A DNA stretch of 44,129 bases from a virus: positions 1-44,129 of the IMG/VR virus record IMGVR_UViG_3300023174_000009. One strand, given 5' to 3'. The translations under genes were made by a program, and so were the position numbers. The notes beneath the pieces were generated by a model. That model saw nothing but the letters and a program-made list of their open reading frames with translations. It had not been told where the DNA came from and searched no databases. Below, in pieces: positions 9,181 through 25,874 of this stretch; the stretch's first letter is position 1; each line of letters starts with the position of its first letter.

Positions 9181-12100
9181 ATGGCAGACGCCAAGGACAC
9201 CCTGCGCTCGCGCGCGTTTGTGAACCTGCTGGACCTACTGTCCGAGGGCGAGGTCGAGGGCCTGGTGGCCGGCGCGCAGTCGATCATCCTCGACGGCACC
9301 CGCCTGGGGAACAGCGACGGCACGCGGAACTTCCAGAACGTGACTTGGGTGGAGCGGCGCGGCACGCTGGCGCAATCGTCCATCCCGGGATTTTCGGCGC
9401 AGCAGAACGCCGTGTCTGTCGGCGTGGAGGTGACTGCGGCTGCTCCTGTGGTCCGGACGATCACGAATCCGGAAGTGTCGGCTGCAGTTGTCGTGATCGG
9501 CATCCCTGCGCTGTCGTCCACGAACACAGCCAACGGCGACGTCAGCGGCACTTCAGTGCAGTTTAAGATCGAGGTCCAACCCAACGGCGGATCCTGGCAA
9601 TCAGCCACTCTCGGCACCGAGGTTCTTCCGCTGAAGACTGTCTCGGCGTCACAGGTCACGACCGACACGTATGCTGCGTCGGCCTGCACGTTGACCGTGT
9701 CGTTTTGGGGTGTTGCAACGAGTGACACTGACGGCCCGATTGCAGTGTCCTACTCTCTGCAGTATCGCGTACAGGGAGCCGCGGCCTGGACGACAGCACG
9801 CACCGGCACTTTGAACGCTGAAACAGGTCAGACCGACTCCTACAGCGAACGCTTCACTCTTACCCCTGCCAAGTACGAGTGGAGGGTCGTGCGCACCGGT
9901 GGCGCTTCCTTCGCCCCGTCGCTGTCTGGCACGATGGAGGTGGCTTCGGCCACGTCGCAGATCAGTGGCAAGTCGTCCAGCCGGTATCAGCGGTCCTACC
10001 GTATTGAACTGCCTGTCGGCGGTGCGCCTTGGAATCTGCGCATCACCCGGACAACCCCGGACTCGACGTCGCAGTACCTGCAGAACAAGACGTACTGGGA
10101 CACCTACAGCGAGGTGGTCGACGCCAAGCTGCGCCTCCCCGGCTCCGCACTGGTTGCCCTGTCGCTTGACGCCGAGTCATTCCCGTCGATCCCGACGCGC
10201 GGCTACGACATCAAGCTGCTGCGCGTGAAGGTCCCGTCGAACTACGACCCGATCGCGCGCACCTACAGCGGCAGCTGGGACGGCACATTCGTGACGGCCT
10301 GGAGCAACAACCCGGCATGGGTGTGGTACGACCTGGCGACGAACACCCGCTACGGGCTGGGCGAGTACATCGACACGGCCAGCGTCGACAAGTGGGCGCT
10401 CTACACCATCGGGCGCTACTGCGACGAACTGGTGCCCAGCGGGCTGGGCGGCCTGGAGCCACGCTTTACCTGCAACGTCTGGCTATCTTCCCGCACCGAG
10501 GCCTACAAGCTGATGCAGGACCTGGCCGCGGTGTTCCGCGGCATGGTGTTCTGGTCGTCCGGCATCATCACGGCGGTGCAGGACTCGCCGGCGTCGGCGG
10601 CCTACCTGTACACCCCGGCCAACGTCATCGATGGCACGTTCACCTACGCGGGCAGTTCGCGCCGCCAGCGGCACACTGTCGCGCTGGTGACGTGGAATGA
10701 CATGAACGATCTGGGGCGCCAGAAGGTCGAGTACGTCGAGGACCGCGACGGCATCGCCAAGTACGGCGTGATCGAGACCCAGGTGGCGGCCATCGGATGC
10801 ACGTCGCGCGGCCAGGCCGCTCGCGCGGGCCGCTGGCTGCTGTTCACCGAGCGGCTGGAGACCGAGACCGTCACGTTCCGCGCCGGCATGGACGGCGCCG
10901 TCGCGCGGCCCGGGCAGATCATCAAGATCGCCGACCCGGCGCGCGCCGGCGTGCGGTTCGGTGGCCGGTTCGTGTCGGCCACCACCACGACAGCGGTGCT
11001 CGACGCGGCCGTCACGCTGGTCGCCGGCCAGACCTACACCCTGTCGGCGTTGAAGGCCGACGGCACCGTCATGGAGGCGACGGTCACCAGCGCCGCCGGC
11101 ACGCTGTCGTCCATCACGTTCTCCGCGCTGCCCGAGGCGCCCAGCGCCAGGTCGGTGTGGGTGCTCGCGTCGGCCACCGTCGACGTGCAGCTGTTCCGCG
11201 TGCTGGGCGTGGTTGAGAACGACCGCCACGAATTTGAGGTGCTGGCGCTGGAGCACAGTCCCGGCAAATTCGCGTCGGTGGAGCAGGGACTGACGCTGCA
11301 GCCGCGGTCGATCTCGGTCCTGTCGCCGATCCCGCCGGCGCCCACAGGGGTGAACGTTTCCGAGACCCTGTACCTGCAGGGCACGTCGTTCCTGTCGCGC
11401 CTGGACGCATCCTGGCAGCCGGTGGCCGGCGCGCAGAACTACGTGGTGCAGATGCGGCGCGGCGATGGAAACTTCGGGCCAGAAATGGTGACCCGCACGG
11501 CCAGCATCGAGATTGCCGGCCTGATCGAGGGCGCCTACACGCTGCGCATCTACTCGGCGTCGCCGACCGGCGATCGGTCCCGCGTACCGAGCGACACCGT
11601 CTGCGCCGTGTCAGGCAAGACCCTGCCGCCGGCCAACGTGCAGGGCCTGGTGGTGACGCGCTACCTGCAGACCCTGACATTCCAGTGGCGCCCGAACACC
11701 GACGTTGACCTCGCCTACTACGAGCTGCGGCAGGGCAACACCTGGGCGACGGCCACCGTGGTCGCGACGACTGCTGGCACCAGGCTGGACGTCATCTCGC
11801 CGCGCGGCGGCACGTTCCAGGTTCGCGCCGTCGACACGTCGGGCAACTACAGCGCCGACTCATCGGTCGTGGTGGCCGCCGACGTCTCGGGCATCAACGT
11901 CGTGCTGTCGATCGACGACGGCACCGGCGGATTCGGTGGCCTGAAGGTCGGCACGGCCGAGGTGCCGCTGTTCAAGCTCGGCACGTGGGACAGCCTGTCG
12001 ACGTGGGACGACATGGGCACGTGGGATGCCCCGGCATCGCTCAACGGCATCACACTGGCCGGGCCGCTGACCTGGTCAGCGCTGACGCAGCCGTGGTCGG

Positions 12101-12813
12101 CCTACTCGGCGCCGTGGCTGTTTTCCGACGTCGTGCGATCGTCTCCGTACACCACCTGGTCGGCGATGACGGGCACGTGGTCGAGCTACGTCGCAACCTG
12201 GGAAACGGCGGCCAGCATCTCGGGCACCTACCAGACCGACGTGGTCGACATCGGCTACGTGGCAACGTCGGTCGTGTCGATCGCACCGCGCATGCAGGTG
12301 CTGCAGCGTGCCGCAAAGGCCTGGGCGCTCTACACCCTGCCGTGGTCGGCCTACGCAGGCCCTGAGTGGACCTGGCAGGGCTACGTGGCCGATGTTTCTG
12401 CCGGCTACGAGGTGTCGACCTCCCTGGACGGCACCACCTGGTCGACATGGCTGCCGTTCGGCGTGGGCAGCTACCGATTCCGCTACATCCGGTTCCGCGT
12501 GACGCTGGCGACGGCCAACAGCGACACCCGCCCGTATCTCACGTCGTTCGTGGTCTACGTCGACGTGCCGGATCGCGTCGATCACCTGGAAAACGTCTCC
12601 ATTCCGATCGGCGGCGCGACTATTACGTTTTCGCCCGCGTTCGTGGGCATCGAAACCGTGCAGGTCACCCTACAATCGGCGACCAGCGGTGACCGCTTCA
12701 CCGTGACCGGGAAGACGTCTAGCAGCGTCACAATCCAGGTATTCGACCAGGCGGGGGCTCCGAAGGCCGGCCTGGTTGACGTTGACGCCTTCGGATACGG
12801 CGAGCGTTACTGA
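9181..12813 (+). CDS. Tip attachment protein, gpJ-like central fibre
   Basis: At 1,210 residues this is the host-recognition protein at the tail tip, about the size of lambda gpJ (1,132). The N-terminus carries the family start DTLRSRAFVNLLDLLSEGEVEGL. The conserved core includes VPSNYDPIARTYSGSWDGTF and NPAWVWYDLATNTRYGLGEY (about 345-395). A beta-rich insertion at about 80-200 follows TLAQSSIPGFSAQQN. Fibronectin-like segments lie at about 720-900. Residues about 930-1010 and 1045-1110 are strikingly Trp-rich with repeats of the form TWxxxxxxW. The far C-terminus is expected to contact the receptor. It starts one base after the gpI stop. Confidence 0.9.
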   Translation: MADAKDTLRSRAFVNLLDLLSEGEVEGLVAGAQSIILDGTRLGNSDGTRNFQNVTWVERRGTLAQSSIPGFSAQQNAVSVGVEVTAAAPVVRTITNPEVSAAVVVIGIPALSSTNTANGDVSGTSVQFKIEVQPNGGSWQSATLGTEVLPLKTVSASQVTTDTYAASACTLTVSFWGVATSDTDGPIAVSYSLQYRVQGAAAWTTARTGTLNAETGQTDSYSERFTLTPAKYEWRVVRTGGASFAPSLSGTMEVASATSQISGKSSSRYQRSYRIELPVGGAPWNLRITRTTPDSTSQYLQNKTYWDTYSEVVDAKLRLPGSALVALSLDAESFPSIPTRGYDIKLLRVKVPSNYDPIARTYSGSWDGTFVTAWSNNPAWVWYDLATNTRYGLGEYIDTASVDKWALYTIGRYCDELVPSGLGGLEPRFTCNVWLSSRTEAYKLMQDLAAVFRGMVFWSSGIITAVQDSPASAAYLYTPANVIDGTFTYAGSSRRQRHTVALVTWNDMNDLGRQKVEYVEDRDGIAKYGVIETQVAAIGCTSRGQAARAGRWLLFTERLETETVTFRAGMDGAVARPGQIIKIADPARAGVRFGGRFVSATTTTAVLDAAVTLVAGQTYTLSALKADGTVMEATVTSAAGTLSSITFSALPEAPSARSVWVLASATVDVQLFRVLGVVENDRHEFEVLALEHSPGKFASVEQGLTLQPRSISVLSPIPPAPTGVNVSETLYLQGTSFLSRLDASWQPVAGAQNYVVQMRRGDGNFGPEMVTRTASIEIAGLIEGAYTLRIYSASPTGDRSRVPSDTVCAVSGKTLPPANVQGLVVTRYLQTLTFQWRPNTDVDLAYYELRQGNTWATATVVATTAGTRLDVISPRGGTFQVRAVDTSGNYSADSSVVVAADVSGINVVLSIDDGTGGFGGLKVGTAEVPLFKLGTWDSLSTWDDMGTWDAPASLNGITLAGPLTWSALTQPWSAYSAPWLFSDVVRSSPYTTWSAMTGTWSSYVATWETAASISGTYQTDVVDIGYVATSVVSIAPRMQVLQRAAKAWALYTLPWSAYAGPEWTWQGYVADVSAGYEVSTSLDGTTWSTWLPFGVGSYRFRYIRFRVTLATANSDTRPYLTSFVVYVDVPDRVDHLENVSIPIGGATITFSPAFVGIETVQVTLQSATSGDRFTVTGKTSSSVTIQVFDQAGAPKAGLVDVDAFGYGERY

Positions 12814-16663: not shown

Positions 16664-17602
16664 CTACGCGAGTTCAAGGGCTTGTGCCGCTTTGGCCAGG
16701 TAGCTTGGGCTGAACTTGGCATAGACCCGCTCAGTGATCCTGCTGTCCTTGTGGCCTAGGTAGGCTGCAATCTCGCTCATGGGCACCCCGGCCTCAGCCA
16801 TCCAGGACGCTGCCGTGTGGCGGAGCACGTGCGGTGTCACGCCCTTGAGCCCTGCTCGGCTAGCCGCCCTGGCGAAGCCACGCTTCACCGTCGACACCGG
16901 GCGGCCTGCGTACTCGATGACGTGCGTCGACTGACGAATATCGAAAGCTTCTGCCAGGGCGTCTCGCGCCAGGATGGTCATGGGGACGACGGCGCGGCCC
17001 TTCCCATATTCTGCATCTCGCCGCAGGTCTACGCGCCTCTGGGCCATATCCACGCGGTCCCACGTGAGTTCGAGGATTGCGGACCGACGGGCGCCTGTTG
17101 ATAGGGTCAGAACAATGAAGAGTTTGACGTGTGGGATGTCGCAGGCGTCGAGCAGGCGCTTGAACTCGTCCCTAGTCAGGCGTCGGTCCCTTGGTCGGCC
17201 AGCAGGCGGCACTTCGAACTGGGCAGGCGAGTTGGGATGGCAGTAGCGCACGGCCGCCTTCAACACCGACAACTCCCTGGCCACCGTGCCGGCCTTCACA
17301 ACCTTGAGTCGGTAGGCCATGAAGGCGCGGCAGTGGTTGCGCGTGATCTGGTCGTGCCTGAGGTGGCCGAAGAAAGGTTCGAGGTGCCTCCACGCGATAA
17401 CCATCTGGTCGTGCGAAGCAGCGGTCGACCGTTCGGCCATGTAGGTCTGGACGTCAGAAGCAAGAAGGGCACCTGACGGTGCCCTTCTGTAGTCTTCGAG
17501 CCTGCTCAGCGCTGTGGCTCTGTCTTTGGTCTTGAGGCTCGTCCTTGAACCCTGGTCTCTTACGTACCAACTGCCGCTGTTTGGGTGCTTCCAGAGGTGC
17601 AT
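16664..17602 (-). CDS. int: Tyrosine-recombinase integrase
   Basis: The 312-residue protein has an N-terminal arm-binding part, a SAM-like core-binding domain (about 48-125), and a catalytic domain with R172 in STGARRSAILELTW, the H258-x-x-R261 pair in TPHVLRHTAASWM, H284 in YLGHKDSRITERVY and nucleophile Tyr294. It inserts the phage at the tRNA-Val site copied in attP, 119 bases downstream of its stop. The ATG at 17602 gives a natural start MHLWKHPNSGSWYV and overlaps the excisionase-like gene by 43 bases. Longer versions reading from 17680 would add unrelated residues. Confidence 0.92.
   Translation of the reverse strand: MHLWKHPNSGSWYVRDQGSRTSLKTKDRATALSRLEDYRRAPSGALLASDVQTYMAERSTAASHDQMVIAWRHLEPFFGHLRHDQITRNHCRAFMAYRLKVVKAGTVARELSVLKAAVRYCHPNSPAQFEVPPAGRPRDRRLTRDEFKRLLDACDIPHVKLFIVLTLSTGARRSAILELTWDRVDMAQRRVDLRRDAEYGKGRAVVPMTILARDALAEAFDIRQSTHVIEYAGRPVSTVKRGFARAASRAGLKGVTPHVLRHTAASWMAEAGVPMSEIAAYLGHKDSRITERVYAKFSPSYLAKAAQALELA
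17463..17488. other. Perfect inverted repeat inside the integrase gene
   Basis: AGAAGGGCACC at 17463-17473 and GGTGCCCTTCT at 17478-17488 form an 11-bp perfect stem with a TGAC loop. It lies near codon 42 of int. On the - strand it is followed by TTGCTTCTG, a poor U-run. It may act as an attenuator within int mRNA or simply reflect coding sequence. Confidence 0.5.
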
Positions 17603-17757
17603 TCGTACTTCTCCACTTCTTCGAGTTTCACACGAAAGATCCGACCAAGTCGGAAGGAGGGCAAAGTACCATTCACACACAAATTCCGTACATGCTGGTA
17701 GCTACAGGACCACCGAAACGCGAGTTCCTTCAGGGTTAGGTATTGCTGTTGGCGCAT
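17560..17757 (-). CDS. Excisionase-like HTH protein
   Basis: The 65-residue protein has a winged-helix MerR/HTH_17 pattern: YLTLKELAFRWSCSYQHVRNLCVNGTLPSFRLGRIFRVKLEEVEKY. This is the layout of small excisionases and related DNA-binding proteins that bend DNA next to att sites. It is encoded directly upstream of int and overlaps it, as expected for a xis-int unit. A role as a transcription regulator is the alternative. Confidence 0.72.
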   Translation of the reverse strand: MRQQQYLTLKELAFRWSCSYQHVRNLCVNGTLPSFRLGRIFRVKLEEVEKYECTSGSTQTAAVGT

Positions 17758-19667: not shown

Positions 19668-19924
19668 AACTGCAGTTGAGTCTGGTTGGGGTCCTGCTGG
19701 GTCGAGGCCTTGTAGGCCCTGTCGACCAGCTTGAGGGTGCGCTCGGTGGGCACACGCGTCAGCGAGTTGCAGAGCCAAGCGCGCACGGTGTACTCGGCCA
19801 CTTCGGCGGCCGATGCCACCCATCGTACCTTCTCGACGTTGGCACCAGGCAGTTTGTCCATGATGGCAATGAGGCGCTGACGGCGAGCCTCACGTGGGTC
19901 AGTTGTCTTCTGTGACTTCGGCAT
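19664..19924 (-). CDS. Small HTH DNA-binding protein
   Basis: An 86-residue basic protein with a helix-turn-helix pattern at about residues 36-65 (VASAAEVAEYTVRAWLCNSL, then VPTERTLKLVDRA). It begins with a basic stretch REARRQRLIAIMDKL. The gene overlaps the dCMP deaminase end by 26 bases, and its TGA overlaps the polymerase GTG. It may regulate the polymerase operon or be a further candidate lysogeny regulator. No named family recognised. Confidence 0.65.
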   Translation of the reverse strand: MPKSQKTTDPREARRQRLIAIMDKLPGANVEKVRWVASAAEVAEYTVRAWLCNSLTRVPTERTLKLVDRAYKASTQQDPNQTQLQL

Positions 19925-20345
19925 AACGCTTCCAGGTGCGTCCGGCTTGGAGCCACAGGTCACGCCCGCTGGCCGGATAATCAGCGAGAGCGACGATCGT
20001 CTTGATGCCTGTGCAGAGAGCCAGCTTGGTGCAGCTGATGCATGGCGCGGTCGTGCAATAGAGCGTGTCGGCCTCGAACGGCTCACGCAAGCGGGCGATG
20101 GCGTTCTGCTCGGCGTGAGCCGACATGCAGGCGTCCAAGCCCGTGCCACTGGGCAGGCCGGCTCCCTCACATGGGATGTCGATGCAGTGCGGCGATCCGC
20201 TGAAGCTGCCATTGTAGCCGGCCGACAGGATGTAGCCAGCACCGACCACCACAGCACCGACCTTTCGGCGGCTGCAGGTGGACCGCTCAGCAAAGACCTG
20301 GGCGATGGCCATGTAGGTCTGATGGATGGTGGGGCGTGTGCTCAT
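19899..20345 (-). CDS. dCMP deaminase
   Basis: The 148-residue enzyme deaminates dCMP to dUMP. Catalytic zinc motif: H77-A-E79 with C102-x2-C105 (CMSAHAEQNAI and YCTTAPCISC). Additional Cys and His residues (PHCIDIPC at about 52-59) resemble the second zinc site of T4-type enzymes. ATG 20345 gives MSTRPTIHQTYMAIAQVFAERS, the normal start. No clear Shine-Dalgarno site precedes it; instead a UUCG hairpin ends 6 bases before the ATG. dUMP from this enzyme would feed the synthase-like protein at 24391. Confidence 0.92.
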   Translation of the reverse strand: MSTRPTIHQTYMAIAQVFAERSTCSRRKVGAVVVGAGYILSAGYNGSFSGSPHCIDIPCEGAGLPSGTGLDACMSAHAEQNAIARLREPFEADTLYCTTAPCISCTKLALCTGIKTIVALADYPASGRDLWLQAGRTWKRYAEVTEDN

Positions 20346-21277: not shown

Positions 21278-21278
21278 T
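21155..21278 (-). promoter_or_regulatory. Inverted repeat that can pair with the DUF2786 ribosome site
   Basis: ATCTCCTAGGTGTC at 21155-21168 and GACACCTAGGAGAT at 21265-21278 are a perfect 14-bp inverted repeat. In a leftward RNA reading through from the transferase gene, the upstream copy is complementary to the downstream copy, which contains the AGGAG ribosome site of the DUF2786 gene. An RNA started at the internal promoter (about 21200) would lack the upstream copy and leave the site open. Confidence 0.6.
21219..21260. repeat. Composite operator repeat, copy 1
   Basis: This 42-bp element matches 32439-32480 at 38 of 42 positions. It consists of a CTATGTAC/GTACATAG palindrome fused to an ATAGTCACACAA/TTGTGTGACTAT palindrome, ending ATTC. 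In both places it lies 8 bases upstream of a leftward -10 candidate. Confidence 0.85.
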
Positions 21279-22408
21279 CAACCCACAAGCAAGCGGTAGT
21301 CATCTGCCGTGAGACCGACGCGCTTGAGCACGTAGTCGTCCGAGGGGTGGACGCTCAGCTCGTTGAAGCTCTTGATCAGGCCCATACTCAACATGGCTTT
21401 CTGCCGACCGAACGGGTGGTCGGTGATCGTGCTGCTGTTCCAGACGGCGTCGCGGTCGACGTGGTCGTAGTCGGCACCTGGCCTGACGTAGTTCTCGATC
21501 CACCGGATGAAGTCGCAGCAGACGTCCTCAGCGTCGTACGGGTGTGCATCGGTGTCCTGCTGGATCTTGGCCATCACCTCGTCAAGGAAGAGCTCCTTGG
21601 GACCACGTCCAAGCGGCCTGGCCAGGTAGCTGATGCACTCAATGGCGTTGGTGCCGTAGTAGAAGGGCGAGGTGCGGTCGACAGTGGCTGGGAAGAAGTC
21701 GGCGATGTCGGCGATGATCGCCGCGTACTGGAAACGGTAGGCACGCAAGTCGTTTCGGGCATTCCAGCGGAACATCCACTCGCCCACCTCGCGCAGCGGC
21801 TTGCTGCTGCCACTCGACAGGAACTCAGCGAGTTGATCAGCCAGTCTCGGTGCGTACTCGCATAGGAACATGTCACCACCGAGCGTGTACCTGTCATCCA
21901 CCTTTGGGAAGGCCGGGAACTGGTAGCCAACGCTGGTGAAGATCGAGCTGGATCGGTCACGGCACTTGATGGTCGTGATCATCTGGTTGAGGTCTCGGCA
22001 GTTAGTCAGTGCCGGCAGGATCGTGTTGTTGTAGCCGCTTGGCTTCTTGGCATAGTTGATACCGCTGCCGGTCACGCGGTGAACGATGAAAACGTAGAGC
22101 CAGTCGGCCAGGTCCCAGGTCTCACGGAAGCGATCGGCCTTTTCGCAGATGGGGCTTCGGACTGAGTGCAGTTTGGCAGAGTACGGGTGCTCGTTGCTGT
22201 TGCCGTACCAGAGGTCAAGCAGGATCTGGGTGAAGCCTGCGTACTTCCTGTTGACCACGTCATACAGCTCGACGTGCTGCATCAGCGGATCCTTGACCGT
22301 GCCGGCCATGTGGGGGATCGTGCCCAGGTTGCACTCGTCCTGCTGGGTCTTGGCCAGGCTGTAGTAGCGCAGGAACTCGTCGTAGTAGTGGGTGGTCTCG
22401 ATCTTCAC
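21278..22408 (-). CDS. Putative amino acid:DNA transferase / thymine pyrophosphorylase-like protein
   Basis: A 376-residue, mostly helical protein starting at GTG 22408, which overlaps the upstream TGA (GTGA). The most striking motif is H110-RVTGSGINYAKKPSGYNNT, followed by CRDLNQM, FTSVGYQFPAFP and YYGTNAIECISYLARPLGRG. I compare it with the HhH-glycosylase-related group that includes alpha-glutamyl/putrescinyl thymine pyrophosphorylases and amino acid:DNA transferases, which attach an amine or amino acid to a phosphorylated 5-hydroxymethyl base in phage DNA. The comparison is from memory of motifs. Context supports it: it is co-encoded with a hydroxymethylase-like enzyme and a PLP-like enzyme. 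Alternative: an unrelated phage helical protein. Confidence 0.58.
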   Translation of the reverse strand: MKIETTHYYDEFLRYYSLAKTQQDECNLGTIPHMAGTVKDPLMQHVELYDVVNRKYAGFTQILLDLWYGNSNEHPYSAKLHSVRSPICEKADRFRETWDLADWLYVFIVHRVTGSGINYAKKPSGYNNTILPALTNCRDLNQMITTIKCRDRSSSIFTSVGYQFPAFPKVDDRYTLGGDMFLCEYAPRLADQLAEFLSSGSSKPLREVGEWMFRWNARNDLRAYRFQYAAIIADIADFFPATVDRTSPFYYGTNAIECISYLARPLGRGPKELFLDEVMAKIQQDTDAHPYDAEDVCCDFIRWIENYVRPGADYDHVDRDAVWNSSTITDHPFGRQKAMLSMGLIKSFNELSVHPSDDYVLKRVGLTADDYRLLVG

Positions 22409-23331
22409 AGCCCACGCTCCAAGTCGCGCAGGTCTCCCCACTCACGCGCACTGTCGATGCTGTCCACGTCCACCTGGCCTAGCATGGACTCGATGGCCTG
22501 GTCGGAGCCGACGTTGATGAAGATGGCACCTGGTGAGCCCAGCTGAACGAAGTCGTCCCAGGCCTTGGCGTCGTAGGTGGCAGTGGTCGGGAACGAGGGC
22601 ATGAGGTGCTTCTTCACGCCGCTCAGGAATTGCATGGTTGCGCTCCGGATCTTGGCATTGCCAATCTCACCATCGTGCATGTTGCGCGCTACGGCGACGC
22701 CGTGGGCGCGAGCATGAGGCCAGCCGATCTGGAACGCACGGATCGCTGTGCCGGTGGACACAGCCATCCAGACCTCAGTCGGTTCGCCGTGATGCTGGGT
22801 GATGTGGTCGGCGAGGCGGACCAAGCCGGCTGTCACCTGAGGGACACCCGACAGGCCGAAGGGTAGGAACTTGGCACCGTGCTTCTCGGCCCACTGCTTG
22901 GCGTAGCCGTTCAGGACCGGCATCGCAGCGATCCTGATGAACCGCAGGTCGGCACCGTGCGCCTTCAGCACGGCTTGGTGGTTTGACACCCTGGCCGAGG
23001 CTGGGCAGAAGAAGACGCACCGCTTGCCGTACATCTTGGCCAAGGTCGCGATGGCGTCAGGGGCGTGGCCGACACGAGGAGCGCAGTAGACCAGCACGTC
23101 CTCCTTGGTCTCGGCGATCAGCTTCTCAGCGCCGTAGGCCTTGAGGCCTGCAGGGGCTAAGTCAGCTCGTAGGACCATCTTGTCCTCAAAAGCCTCGATG
23201 ACAGGCGGAGGCATCTTTGGTTCAAAGTCAGCACCGTACAGGTCGAGGTAGTGCTGCTTGGCCTGGCCAAGGTTCATGTTGGCTGGGATGTCCTTGTTGG
23301 TTCGGATGACGGTGATGCTGAAGATGGACAC
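22405..23331 (-). CDS. PLP-dependent enzyme-like protein (fold type II)
   Basis: The 308-residue product starts at GTG 23331 with GAGGA upstream. It reads like the tryptophan synthase beta / D-cysteine desulfhydrase fold. VLRADLAPAGLKAYGAEKL (residues 53-71) carries candidate PLP lysines K64 and K70. VYCAPRVGHAPDAIATLA and VFFCPASARVSNHQAVLKAHGA resemble the Ser/Asn-His and small-domain segments. VSTGTAIRAFQIGWPHA resembles the Gly/Ser loop that binds the PLP phosphate. In known thymine hypermodification a PLP enzyme decarboxylates the amino acid adduct (established for other phages). That this one does so is inference from its neighbours. The catalytic lysine cannot be assigned with certainty. 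Confidence 0.55.
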   Translation of the reverse strand: MSIFSITVIRTNKDIPANMNLGQAKQHYLDLYGADFEPKMPPPVIEAFEDKMVLRADLAPAGLKAYGAEKLIAETKEDVLVYCAPRVGHAPDAIATLAKMYGKRCVFFCPASARVSNHQAVLKAHGADLRFIRIAAMPVLNGYAKQWAEKHGAKFLPFGLSGVPQVTAGLVRLADHITQHHGEPTEVWMAVSTGTAIRAFQIGWPHARAHGVAVARNMHDGEIGNAKIRSATMQFLSGVKKHLMPSFPTTATYDAKAWDDFVQLGSPGAIFINVGSDQAIESMLGQVDVDSIDSAREWGDLRDLERGL

Positions 23332-23435
23332 AAGGTTTCCTCGTTGTAGGGTTTGAGGCCTCGGGCAGTGATCCATCCGAGGACGAAGCCGACGTCGATC
23401 AGGATCCAGCCGGCAATGAACTCCCAGAACCCCAT
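23274..23435 (-). CDS. 53-residue single-span membrane protein nested between genes
   Basis: ATG 23435 has a strong GGAGG ribosome site six bases upstream. The product begins MGFWEFIAGWILIDVGFVLG, one hydrophobic span, followed by WITARGLKPYNEETLC and a Ser/Pro/Thr-rich tail. It overlaps the end of the SGNH-like gene by 37 bases and the start of the PLP-like gene by 58 bases, and so fills the only gap in the cassette. The good ribosome site and clean membrane segment support it. No family recognised. Confidence 0.5.
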   Translation of the reverse strand: MGFWEFIAGWILIDVGFVLGWITARGLKPYNEETLCPSSASPSSEPTRTSQPT

Positions 23436-24394
23436 CCATTCCTCCGGTAGTGGGTCGGTGAGATGTGGACGGACGAGCCCAGCTCCATGCAGGTCTTTGC
23501 GTAGAGCTGACCGTCCATCGAGTACCAGTCGTCCGGTGGCTGAACGACGCTGATGTCGTGGCCCTGCAGACGTGTGATGAAGGTCTTGGTCCAGCCACGC
23601 CGCTGCTCGGCACTGCCTGCAAACGGAGTCTTCATGTAGAAGCCGGTCTGCGGGATGCGCCTGCCCTCGTGCTCGACTGGCACAGGGGCCGCGACCTCGA
23701 TGTCCATGATGAACTCGCCCATCAGAGACTTGACGTGATGGGCGTAGCGGTCGGCCAGGCGCAGGACGGCATCATCCGGATTCTCCTGACGGCCGATGTG
23801 GTGGCGGATGTCGATGGAACCCAGAACCATCAGGACGTGATCGTACTTGGAGCAGTCGATAGCCTGCAGCCGCATGTTGATGAAGTCATCCTCCATGGCC
23901 CCGTACAGCGTGCGGCCGTTGTGCCGTGAGATGGCGGCGCCGGCCGGTGCGTAGGCTGTCGCGTGGCTGTCACCGATGACCAGGGTCTTGGCTTCTAGGT
24001 CGGTCTGCAGGACGGTCTCGGCGCTTTCGAACCGTTCCTTCAGTACCGGCAGCAGCTTCGGCAGACGCGGATCACACGTGTCCTGGCCGACGCGCTTGGC
24101 CAACTGGTCGACGTAGTCCGGCATCGGACGGTCGAGGCTGAACAGCTGGCCTTCGTGCGTGACCAGCTGCAGCAGCCGCTCGTAGACCTCTGGACTCACG
24201 CCACCGAACAGGTTCAGCGCGCCACCGAAGTTGACGCCGTGGTCAAGGTACAGGTCGTCGTAACCGTGGATGTCCGTCTCCTTGTCGGCCACCTCGGCCT
24301 TGAGGGACTCGGCCCAGTGCAAGGCCCAGCCACGGACGTGCGACTTCGAGCTCACCGGCACCGGTGAGAAGGGATTGAAGATCAGCTTGGTCAT
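23399..24394 (-). CDS. SGNH-hydrolase-like protein of the modification cassette
   Basis: A 331-residue protein starting at ATG 24394, overlapping the synthase-like gene by 4 bases (ATGA). The core from about residue 134 shows SGNH blocks: LVIGDSHATAY with the nucleophile serine, VLMVLGSIDIRHHIG in the place of the GxND block, and SSVHISPTHYRR near the end with the His. The first 110 residues (with YDDLYLDHGVNFGGALNLFGG) are not a known part of that fold. SGNH proteins cut or transfer acyl and similar groups. In this setting it could finish, trim or acylate a base side chain, or act on a donor. Substrate is unknown. Confidence 0.6.
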   Translation of the reverse strand: MTKLIFNPFSPVPVSSKSHVRGWALHWAESLKAEVADKETDIHGYDDLYLDHGVNFGGALNLFGGVSPEVYERLLQLVTHEGQLFSLDRPMPDYVDQLAKRVGQDTCDPRLPKLLPVLKERFESAETVLQTDLEAKTLVIGDSHATAYAPAGAAISRHNGRTLYGAMEDDFINMRLQAIDCSKYDHVLMVLGSIDIRHHIGRQENPDDAVLRLADRYAHHVKSLMGEFIMDIEVAAPVPVEHEGRRIPQTGFYMKTPFAGSAEQRRGWTKTFITRLQGHDISVVQPPDDWYSMDGQLYAKTCMELGSSVHISPTHYRRNGWGSGSSLPAGS

Positions 24395-25050
24395 GGTGTG
24401 ACGAGGTGGAAGTGGCGTGGGTAGACGTGAAGCGAAGCGGCGTTCCAGTAGATCTTGCCAAGCTTGAGACCGTGGAACGACATGGCGTCACGAGCCATTT
24501 TGTGGATGTAAGCGTGCCACGCGTAGTCGTTCTTGTAGCCGAACACTGCGTCGTTGCTGCGCATGTAGACGAGGTAGTCCAACTTGCCATTGCGGATCAA
24601 AAGCTGGACTGCGTAAGTGCACATGAAGTCCTTCATGCCGCCTGCCGTTGCGTCATCGTGCATGGTCGGCCGGATGTAGATCATCGTGGCCTGACGGCTT
24701 GCCGGGTTTTTGGTCAGGGTTCTGATGGCCGAGTCGAACTGGTAGTAGTTCTCATCGCTCCAAATACACCAGCCGTAGTTGCTGTTGATCTGGCCATCCA
24801 CACTGGCGATGCTCTTCCAGATCTCAGGTATTGGTGGGGTAATGTCGTTGACGTTCAGCGACATCGACTCGTACCAATCCAACTCGCGATCGATGTAGTC
24901 ATGATTGGGTGTTCCGAAGATCGCGGGCTCGTCCGCCACAAAGCAGGCGTTGACGATCTCGATGTTGCCATCTTCAGCAAAGTCACCGGACAGCAGCAGG
25001 TGGCGAAACGCCTCGCGGACCATCGCCACGTTGGTCGATGCCGGCATCAT
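24391..25050 (-). CDS. Thymidylate-synthase-like pyrimidine hydroxymethylase
   Basis: A 219-residue member of the thymidylate synthase / dCMP-dUMP hydroxymethylase superfamily. Seen: NSNYGWCIWSDENYYQF (about 89-105), the SRQATMIYIRP arginine region, catalytic Cys144 in KDFMCTYAVQL, MRSNDAVFGYKNDYAW (163-178), and LHVYPRHF near the end. Cys144 lies in DFMCT instead of the PPCH of standard synthases, and the segment after RSND is that of phage hydroxymethylases. In the place of the Asn that selects dUMP in thymidylate synthase there is Asp175, a feature of dCMP hydroxymethylase, so both 5-hmdUMP and 5-hmdCMP are possible products. It overlaps the MazG-DUF5664 gene by 4 bases. Confidence 0.78.
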   Translation of the reverse strand: MMPASTNVAMVREAFRHLLLSGDFAEDGNIEIVNACFVADEPAIFGTPNHDYIDRELDWYESMSLNVNDITPPIPEIWKSIASVDGQINSNYGWCIWSDENYYQFDSAIRTLTKNPASRQATMIYIRPTMHDDATAGGMKDFMCTYAVQLLIRNGKLDYLVYMRSNDAVFGYKNDYAWHAYIHKMARDAMSFHGLKLGKIYWNAASLHVYPRHFHLVTP

Positions 25051-25874
25051 GCTGCTTCGCCCTTGCGGTTGAAGCGGTCGTCCTTGTCAGGGTTGTTGGC
25101 AACGTGCTCCATCAGGATCATGAGCTGGGTGCCGGCATGGGCAAGGTGGTGCTTGCCGCTCTCCGGGTCCACGTCCTGGCCGTCCCAGAACATGAACAGG
25201 TGGCGGAGGATGCTGCCGTAGGTGCGGGACCAAGCCACCGTCTCGCCGCTGCGGTAGCTATTGGCAAAGTACTTCAGTGCGCCGTAGCCGAACACGTCGG
25301 CGATCTGCAGCATGGGGTCGACGGGCAGCAGGTCGACACGGACCTTGTTGCTGTCGAACTTCGGAGCCTGGCCAGCGATGATCGGCTCACGGTCAGCCGT
25401 GACGAGCTGAGGACCAGGCACGGCAAGTGGTTTGGCCTTTGGCTCCTTACCGTCAACACGGTCACAGGCCTGATTGATGATGTGGGCCAGTTCGGTCTCT
25501 GGACCGACCCAACCAGCAGGCTTGACCAAGTCGCGCTTGAAGCCGCCGCGCTTGTTGCCGTTCTGGCCGACCTCCTTGGCCATGTTCGCCAGCATCACGG
25601 CTTCGAAGCCTGGCAACAGTGGCAAGCCGTGGCGCTCCAGGGTGCCGACAGCAAACACGATCAGGTCGAGCAGCGAGTCGTACAGGGTGACGAGGTCCTG
25701 CGCCTCCTCGTACTCCTGGATCTCCTCGCGCATAGCGGCAATGCGGAAGCGCTTCTCCTCCTCGTTGAGGACCGTTGGGCCATCTGTGTTCTGCAGGCCG
25801 AACTTCATGTGCATGGCCAGCACAAGCTGCATCAGGACAGACTCGTTCTGCGTTTTGGGTGGGATGTTGGGCAT
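25047..25874 (-). CDS. MazG-like and DUF5664 (dATP/dGTP diphosphohydrolase) fusion
   Basis: The 275-residue protein joins two nucleotide pyrophosphohydrolase domains. Residues about 10-95 are MazG-like, with FRIAAMREEIQEYEEA and DSLLDLIVFAVGTLERHGL forming the metal-binding E-x-x-E and D pattern. Residues about 170-270 match DUF5664: KFDSNKVRVDLLP, FGYGALKYFANSY, ILRHLFMFWDGQDVDPESG and HHLAHAGTQLMILM. DUF5664 is annotated as a dATP/dGTP diphosphohydrolase; related MazZ works in diaminopurine phages (established). It may remove normal dNTPs or supply monophosphates for the synthase-like enzyme next to it. ATG 25874 has no strong ribosome site; the leader contains inverted repeats. Confidence 0.75.
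   Translation of the reverse strand: MPNIPPKTQNESVLMQLVLAMHMKFGLQNTDGPTVLNEEEKRFRIAAMREEIQEYEEAQDLVTLYDSLLDLIVFAVGTLERHGLPLLPGFEAVMLANMAKEVGQNGNKRGGFKRDLVKPAGWVGPETELAHIINQACDRVDGKEPKAKPLAVPGPQLVTADREPIIAGQAPKFDSNKVRVDLLPVDPMLQIADVFGYGALKYFANSYRSGETVAWSRTYGSILRHLFMFWDGQDVDPESGKHHLAHAGTQLMILMEHVANNPDKDDRFNRKGEAA

Follow-up and report, generated by a model that had tools for sequence, protein, structure and literature searches.

The work of Lee from 2018 and 2021 reportedly describes amino-acid hypermodifications of DNA as being made on thymine through a phosphorylated intermediate. Two papers that summarise this work place the known amino-acid hypermodifications on the same base, via the same kind of intermediate (PMC6449724, PMC7653180). 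For cytosine, the MetaGPA metagenome study found that enzymes of the thymidylate synthase (TS) family on modified-cytosine phage contigs have Asp at the specificity position (Asp177), and that PRA-PH and dCMP deaminase domains co-occur on these contigs (PMC8670742). The corresponding Asp179 of the T4 enzyme is the determinant of dCMP over dUMP (PMC6400193). We found no description of an amino-acid hypermodified cytosine in the literature that was searched. Here we describe a gene cassette at positions 21278-25874, minus strand, of the virus record IMGVR_UViG_3300023174_000009; positions 1 to 44,129 of that record, the whole stretch that was analysed, are called the window. The cassette codes for a MazG-type protein, a hydroxymethylase of the TS family, an SGNH-fold protein, a pyridoxal 5'-phosphate (PLP) enzyme and a transferase-like protein, and a dCMP deaminase gene lies close by. 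We think it likely that the cassette as a whole directs DNA hypermodification at cytosine, with a chemistry that we infer below. It appears to carry amino-acid hypermodification chemistry over to cytosine, with a different activation route.

Conservation of the gene cluster

The gene cluster is a real, conserved module. The order MazG, hydroxymethylase, SGNH, PLP, transferase, deaminase repeats in IMG/VR contigs, and in others the genes are rearranged. Dozens of other contigs carry these genes again, mostly in unchanged order, which excludes chance. With flanks of at least 4 kb required on each side, there were 27 distinct transferase contigs, and both SGNH and PLP genes were present in 22 of them, SGNH alone in one, and neither in four. 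When the search was started from SGNH, the transferase was found in all 34 contigs with enough flanking sequence, and PLP in 31 of them. Four contigs from bacterial genomes were found, all metagenome-assembled genomes, and each has the transferase, SGNH, and PLP genes. The transferase family has at least 543 relatives among the candidates in metaviromes, while two queries against 50,697 isolate phage records found nothing. Thus, with hundreds of metavirome contigs and no isolate match, a DNA modification that is common may so far have escaped notice.

The hydroxymethylase and the target base

A reading of the window made earlier from its letters alone, referred to here as the sequence-only reading, had described a TS-like hydroxymethylase on the premise of a thymine pathway. 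The family assignment holds, but the thymine premise does not. Among solved structures, T4 dCMP hydroxymethylase is the first match of this protein (PDB 1b49/1b5e, E = 4e-66), whereas thymidylate synthases are far weaker (1e-9 and worse). Its matches in phage records are mostly from T4-like phages, at about 50% identity, and several of these are annotated as dCMP hydroxymethylase. The catalytic cysteine, equivalent to Cys148, is kept in 75/75 hydroxymethylases. At the position equivalent to T4 Asp179, the window enzyme has Asp, as do 74/74 cassette enzymes, while M6 gp58, which served as the control, has Asn. An Asp at the specificity position marks an enzyme for dCMP, which makes 5-hydroxymethylcytosine the expected substrate of the pathway. 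The sequences strongly indicate that 5-hydroxymethylcytosine, and not 5-hydroxymethyluracil, is the predicted target base, and thymine as a target was rejected because of the Asp179 equivalent.

The window has the full MetaGPA set of Asp177-type TS, PRA-PH, and dCMP deaminase domains. The MazG-DUF5664 fusion is the conserved first cassette gene in the relatives, and the dCMP deaminase is linked to the cassette in many of them. The MazG-type protein is probably a nucleotide-pool enzyme, perhaps acting as a dCTPase. Glucosylation was also considered and rejected, as neither AGT nor BGT scores over the cut-off in the window.

The transferase-like protein and the PLP enzyme

Pfam, PHROG, and NCBIfam gave no meaningful match for the transferase-like protein, and Pfam gave none for 35 members of its family. 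ADDT (PF18724) and HMUDK_hel (PF18723) are absent from the window, and placement of the protein in either family at the sequence level failed with both Pfam and profile comparison. The motif E-x3-C-x-[FW], considered as common to the transferase families, was discarded since it is present in 138 of 884 other open reading frames (ORFs). The AlphaFold model of the protein has a predicted local distance difference test score (pLDDT) of 86.8. Its nearest solved structure is PaMx11 PUGT (8z2n), the 5-PmdU glycinyltransferase, which is an amino acid:DNA transferase, with Z = 9.4 over 211 residues and a root-mean-square deviation (rmsd) of 4.3. The first BFVD match of the model, with 54% identity, bears the name amino acid:DNA transferase domain protein; the HMUDK_hel protein of phiW-14 is also among the BFVD matches. 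Since profile comparison is negative and the structural match is to PUGT, we regard the protein as a new sequence family that likely shares its fold with the amino acid:DNA transferases. The name given in the sequence-only reading, amino acid:DNA transferase-like, thus agrees with the nearest solved structure, but finds no counterpart in a sequence-profile match to ADDT or HMUDK_hel.

Among 26 transferase loci with neither PLP nor SGNH in the vicinity, 25 have a protein of about 340 residues next to the transferase (e.g., L104:9187-9972 and 11676-12704; also L065, L095, L102, and others). In several of these loci, an HhH-GPD glycosylase-like gene is located upstream as well. The protein of about 340 residues may be a second transferase-like paralogue, although profile comparison gave no such relation.

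The PLP-like protein was correctly recognized from the letters alone, as it is homologous to phage M6 gp52 (HH 95%, E = 2e-8), and the PLP-binding lysine is kept in 102/102 sequences. Members of the family are also fused to, or adjoin, an N6_N4 DNA methylase-like domain in Erythrobacter phages R6L and ZS04 and Microcystis phage Mae-JY30 (loci L001, L002, and L003). The PLP family therefore has partners outside the cassette.

The SGNH protein

What is the function of the SGNH protein? The sequence-only reading had remarked that this member stands outside the known pathways, and its fold is borne out by the AlphaFold model (pLDDT 89.5), which matches GDSL esterases with Z = 12.3 and the PatB O-acetyltransferase with Z = 11.7. 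Ser143 is found in 108/108 sequences, and His310 in every sequence with a residue at that position. Block III reads G-S/N-I-D, the position three residues before the His is S, Q, or K, and an invariant Glu304 is nearby. In a 225-kb phage record, G032, a single ORF of 790 residues consists of SGNH followed by the window-type transferase family. This record also holds the PLP gene and codes for a TS-family enzyme whose specificity position is occupied by Asp; it has no HMUDK kinase. The strict co-occurrence and the fusion tie SGNH to the transferase, and it therefore probably works with the transferase, at the same or a neighbouring step.

In Aeromonas phage 25, the SGNH homologue adjoins a UDP-galactopyranose mutase gene and a glycosyltransferase-looking gene (L113:4776-8047). 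This locus suggests a sugar-based modification of cytosine.

Absence of the kinase

That the cassette is without a P-loop kinase was already noted from the letters alone, and this absence extends to the whole family rather than just the window contig. Neither the window nor any of 20 related IMG/VR records, several of them >100 kb, contains the 5-hydroxymethyldeoxyuridine (5-hmdU) DNA kinase (PF18748), with M6 detected as the control, and a further seven records, among them three from IMG/VR that are >100 kb, are negative too, although many of the records searched may be fragments. A profile grown from M6 gp54 recovered the kinase from 38 of 39 M6-type loci, and from no cassette locus at a meaningful E-value. 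The weak matches to the kinase profile (E = 0.13 and worse) seem to come from P-loop ORFs of a clamp-loader-like kind. The P-loops near the cassette in the relatives resemble replicative-helicase and clamp-loader P-loops, judging from the sequence around the motif. Within the window, P-loops had been assigned to the SNF2 helicase, the primase-helicase, and the terminase, but a strict and plausibly placed Walker-A motif is present only in the primase-helicase. Since the kinase is absent across the relatives and the controls are positive, its absence is a family trait, subject to the caveat about fragments. A hidden HMUDK kinase was rejected, as both profile and whole-record searches were negative while the positive controls worked.

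Proposed pathway and alternatives

In the pathway that we propose, the dCMP hydroxymethylase would make 5-hydroxymethyl-dCMP, and the MazG-type pyrophosphatase, probably a dCTPase, would tune the nucleotide pool together with the dCMP deaminase, so that 5-hydroxymethylcytosine enters the phage DNA. The transferase-fold protein would then put an amino acid, or a related nucleophile, on the 5-methylene carbon of 5-hydroxymethylcytosine, and the PLP enzyme would rework the attached group, for example by decarboxylation. We infer the amino-acid transfer and the PLP processing from the fold, the homology to M6 gp52, and the gene linkage. In place of the phosphate, SGNH might esterify the hydroxymethyl group by means of its invariant Ser and His, giving a leaving group for the transferase. 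This activating role for SGNH is the one we prefer, but we put it forward tentatively. The complete kinase-free route to an amino-acid-derived hypermodified cytosine, with acylation of 5-hydroxymethylcytosine by SGNH, displacement of the ester by the transferase, sometimes on the same polypeptide, and processing by the PLP enzyme, is rather unlikely to be correct in every part.

Several observations weigh against this pathway. The T4-type dNMP kinase (PF21448), which could take hydroxymethyl-dCMP on towards the triphosphate, was not found in the window, while Aeromonas phages 44RR2.8t (44RR) and 25 do have this kinase. Profile comparison of the transferase with M6-type ADDT and HMUDK_hel alignments gave HH probabilities of only 0.4% and 1.8%. 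The Z of 9.4 to PUGT is moderate for a mostly helical protein, and DUF2419 and HhH-GPD glycosylases follow at Z = 7-8. In the SGNH protein, neither the Asn that is canonical for block III (GxND) nor the Asp that is canonical for block V (DxxH) is present. The flanks of four transferase contigs hold neither an SGNH nor a PLP gene, and Aeromonas phage 25 has an SGNH homologue with no transferase of the cassette family found.

About as likely as activation by SGNH, and likewise short of an even chance, is that the same cytosine cassette operates by direct substitution, with the transferase acting on the hydroxyl of 5-hydroxymethylcytosine, by substitution or condensation, without an activated leaving group. 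SGNH would then be a tailoring enzyme of the attached group, acting by O- or N-acylation or by ester hydrolysis, which fits with the O-acetyltransferases and esterases among its fold relatives. The SGNH of phage 25, located beside UDP-galactopyranose mutase and without the transferase, also argues that SGNH is not tied to amino-acid transfer alone. However, the tight co-occurrence of transferase and SGNH and the G032 fusion suggest a role at the transferase step, as do the three SGNH contigs in which the transferase but no PLP was found.

Two other explanations depart further from our proposal. The transferase-like protein could belong to the HhH-GPD superfamily as a DNA glycosylase or a nucleoside hydrolase, and the cassette would then have a function other than amino-acid transfer to DNA. 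In the fold list, HhH-GPD glycosylases and the DUF2419 salvage enzyme do come close behind PUGT, and the protein is without a sequence-level match to ADDT. We nevertheless consider this improbable, since PUGT is the top solved match with the lower rmsd, the homologue with 54% identity carries the name amino acid:DNA transferase domain protein, and a PLP partner of the M6 type speaks for amino-acid chemistry. Least probable is an M6-like thymine hypermodification in which the host or an unrecognised protein supplies the 5-hydroxymethyluracil kinase. Such a pathway would be in keeping with the PLP enzyme of M6 gp52 type and with the resemblance of the transferase model to PUGT, a thymine-pathway enzyme, but it is opposed by the dCMP-specifying Asp in all 74 hydroxymethylases, compared with Asn in M6, and by nearest relatives of these enzymes that are T4-type dCMP hydroxymethylases. 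A role of the cassette in a defence system was rejected, as there was no PADLOC match.

If the cytosine pathway is correct, an amino-acid-derived group on 5-hydroxymethylcytosine would represent a DNA base modification of a new kind. The pathway would also be a source of enzymes that label 5-hydroxymethylcytosine, and studies of type IV restriction would gain new substrates.

Gene layout of the window

The features of the cassette and its neighbourhood are collected in Table 1. The leftward MazG-DUF5664, TS-family, SGNH-like, PLP-family, and transferase-like ORFs of the sequence-only reading were all recovered from the sequence, with support from Pfam and PHROG, and so was the nearby dCMP deaminase gene. 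The 4-base overlaps noted in that reading are present at three cassette junctions, including that at which the GTG start of the transferase overlaps the PLP stop. The tiny membrane protein, which the reading had listed as a member, was dropped because its ORF runs into the SGNH gene as well as the PLP gene, and none of the relatives has a homologue of it.

Table 1. Genes of the cassette and its surroundings in the window.
Feature	Coordinates	Strand	Basis or remark
MazG-type pyrophosphohydrolase + dGTP_diPhyd_N/DUF5664 fusion	25047..25874	-	PF01503 1e-5, PF18909 3e-26
dCMP hydroxymethylase, T4 gp42 type	24391..25050	-	PF00303 4e-15; T4 enzyme best solved match
SGNH-fold enzyme	23399..24394	-	AlphaFold model, SGNH fold; conserved Ser143, His310
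53-residue ORF, one predicted hydrophobic stretch	23274..23435	-	probably no conserved cassette member
PLP-dependent fold-type-II enzyme, M6 gp52 kind, GTG start	22405..23331	-	PF00291 1e-6, phrog_7093 5e-60
Amino acid:DNA transferase-like protein, GTG start	21278..22408	-	AlphaFold model nearest PaMx11 PUGT
dCMP deaminase, nucleotide-pool gene near cassette	19899..20345	-	PF00383 3e-19, phrog_174 2e-38

A DUF2786/DUF7168 gene is located between the dCMP deaminase gene and the cassette. The window also contains a tyrosine-type integrase gene at 16664-17680 (minus strand), which suggests that the phage is temperate. This is unusual beside a DNA hypermodification cassette, and the prophage form would presumably be unmodified.

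Comparison with known systems

The layout of the G032 fusion has a parallel in ORF233c of Aeromonas phage 44RR, a protein of 795 residues with an N-terminal SGNH part that is homologous over its full length. The C-terminal part of ORF233c matches HMUDK_hel and phrog_2396 weakly and has no sequence relation to the window transferase, and there is no PLP gene beside ORF233c. No HMUDK kinase, AGT, or BGT was found in the 44RR record, and its relative avDM1 carries a dCMP hydroxymethylase. Because this related SGNH fusion is present in cultured Aeromonas phages, the idea is open to test now. A sodium:solute symporter gene is located directly upstream of the 44RR SGNH fusion (L004:4408-5931), and also in phage AS4. 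The symporter might import the donor for the modification.

The cassette has in common with the M6/YuA-type system (gp51-gp55), which makes 5-(2-aminoethyl)deoxyuridine in Pseudomonas phage M6, a TS-family hydroxymethylase, a dCMP deaminase, and a homologous PLP enzyme (gp52), and the transferase fold may be shared. However, the cassette hydroxymethylase is of the dCMP rather than the dUMP type, the 5-hmdU kinase and a radical SAM enzyme of the gp53 kind are absent, the transferase is unrelated by sequence profile, and SGNH is added. With T4, the cassette shares a dCMP hydroxymethylase, about 50% identical to the T4-like enzymes, a dCMP deaminase, and a pool pyrophosphatase. It differs from T4 in that the window has transferase, PLP, and SGNH genes, and has neither AGT or BGT over the cut-off nor a T4-type dNMP kinase. 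The 5-hydroxymethylcytosine carbamoyltransferase phages of the MetaGPA study have the same Asp177-type TS, PRA-PH, and dCMP deaminase domains as the cassette (PMC8670742). Whereas the tailoring enzyme of those phages is a carbamoyltransferase, the cassette has the set of transferase, PLP enzyme, and SGNH protein in its place.

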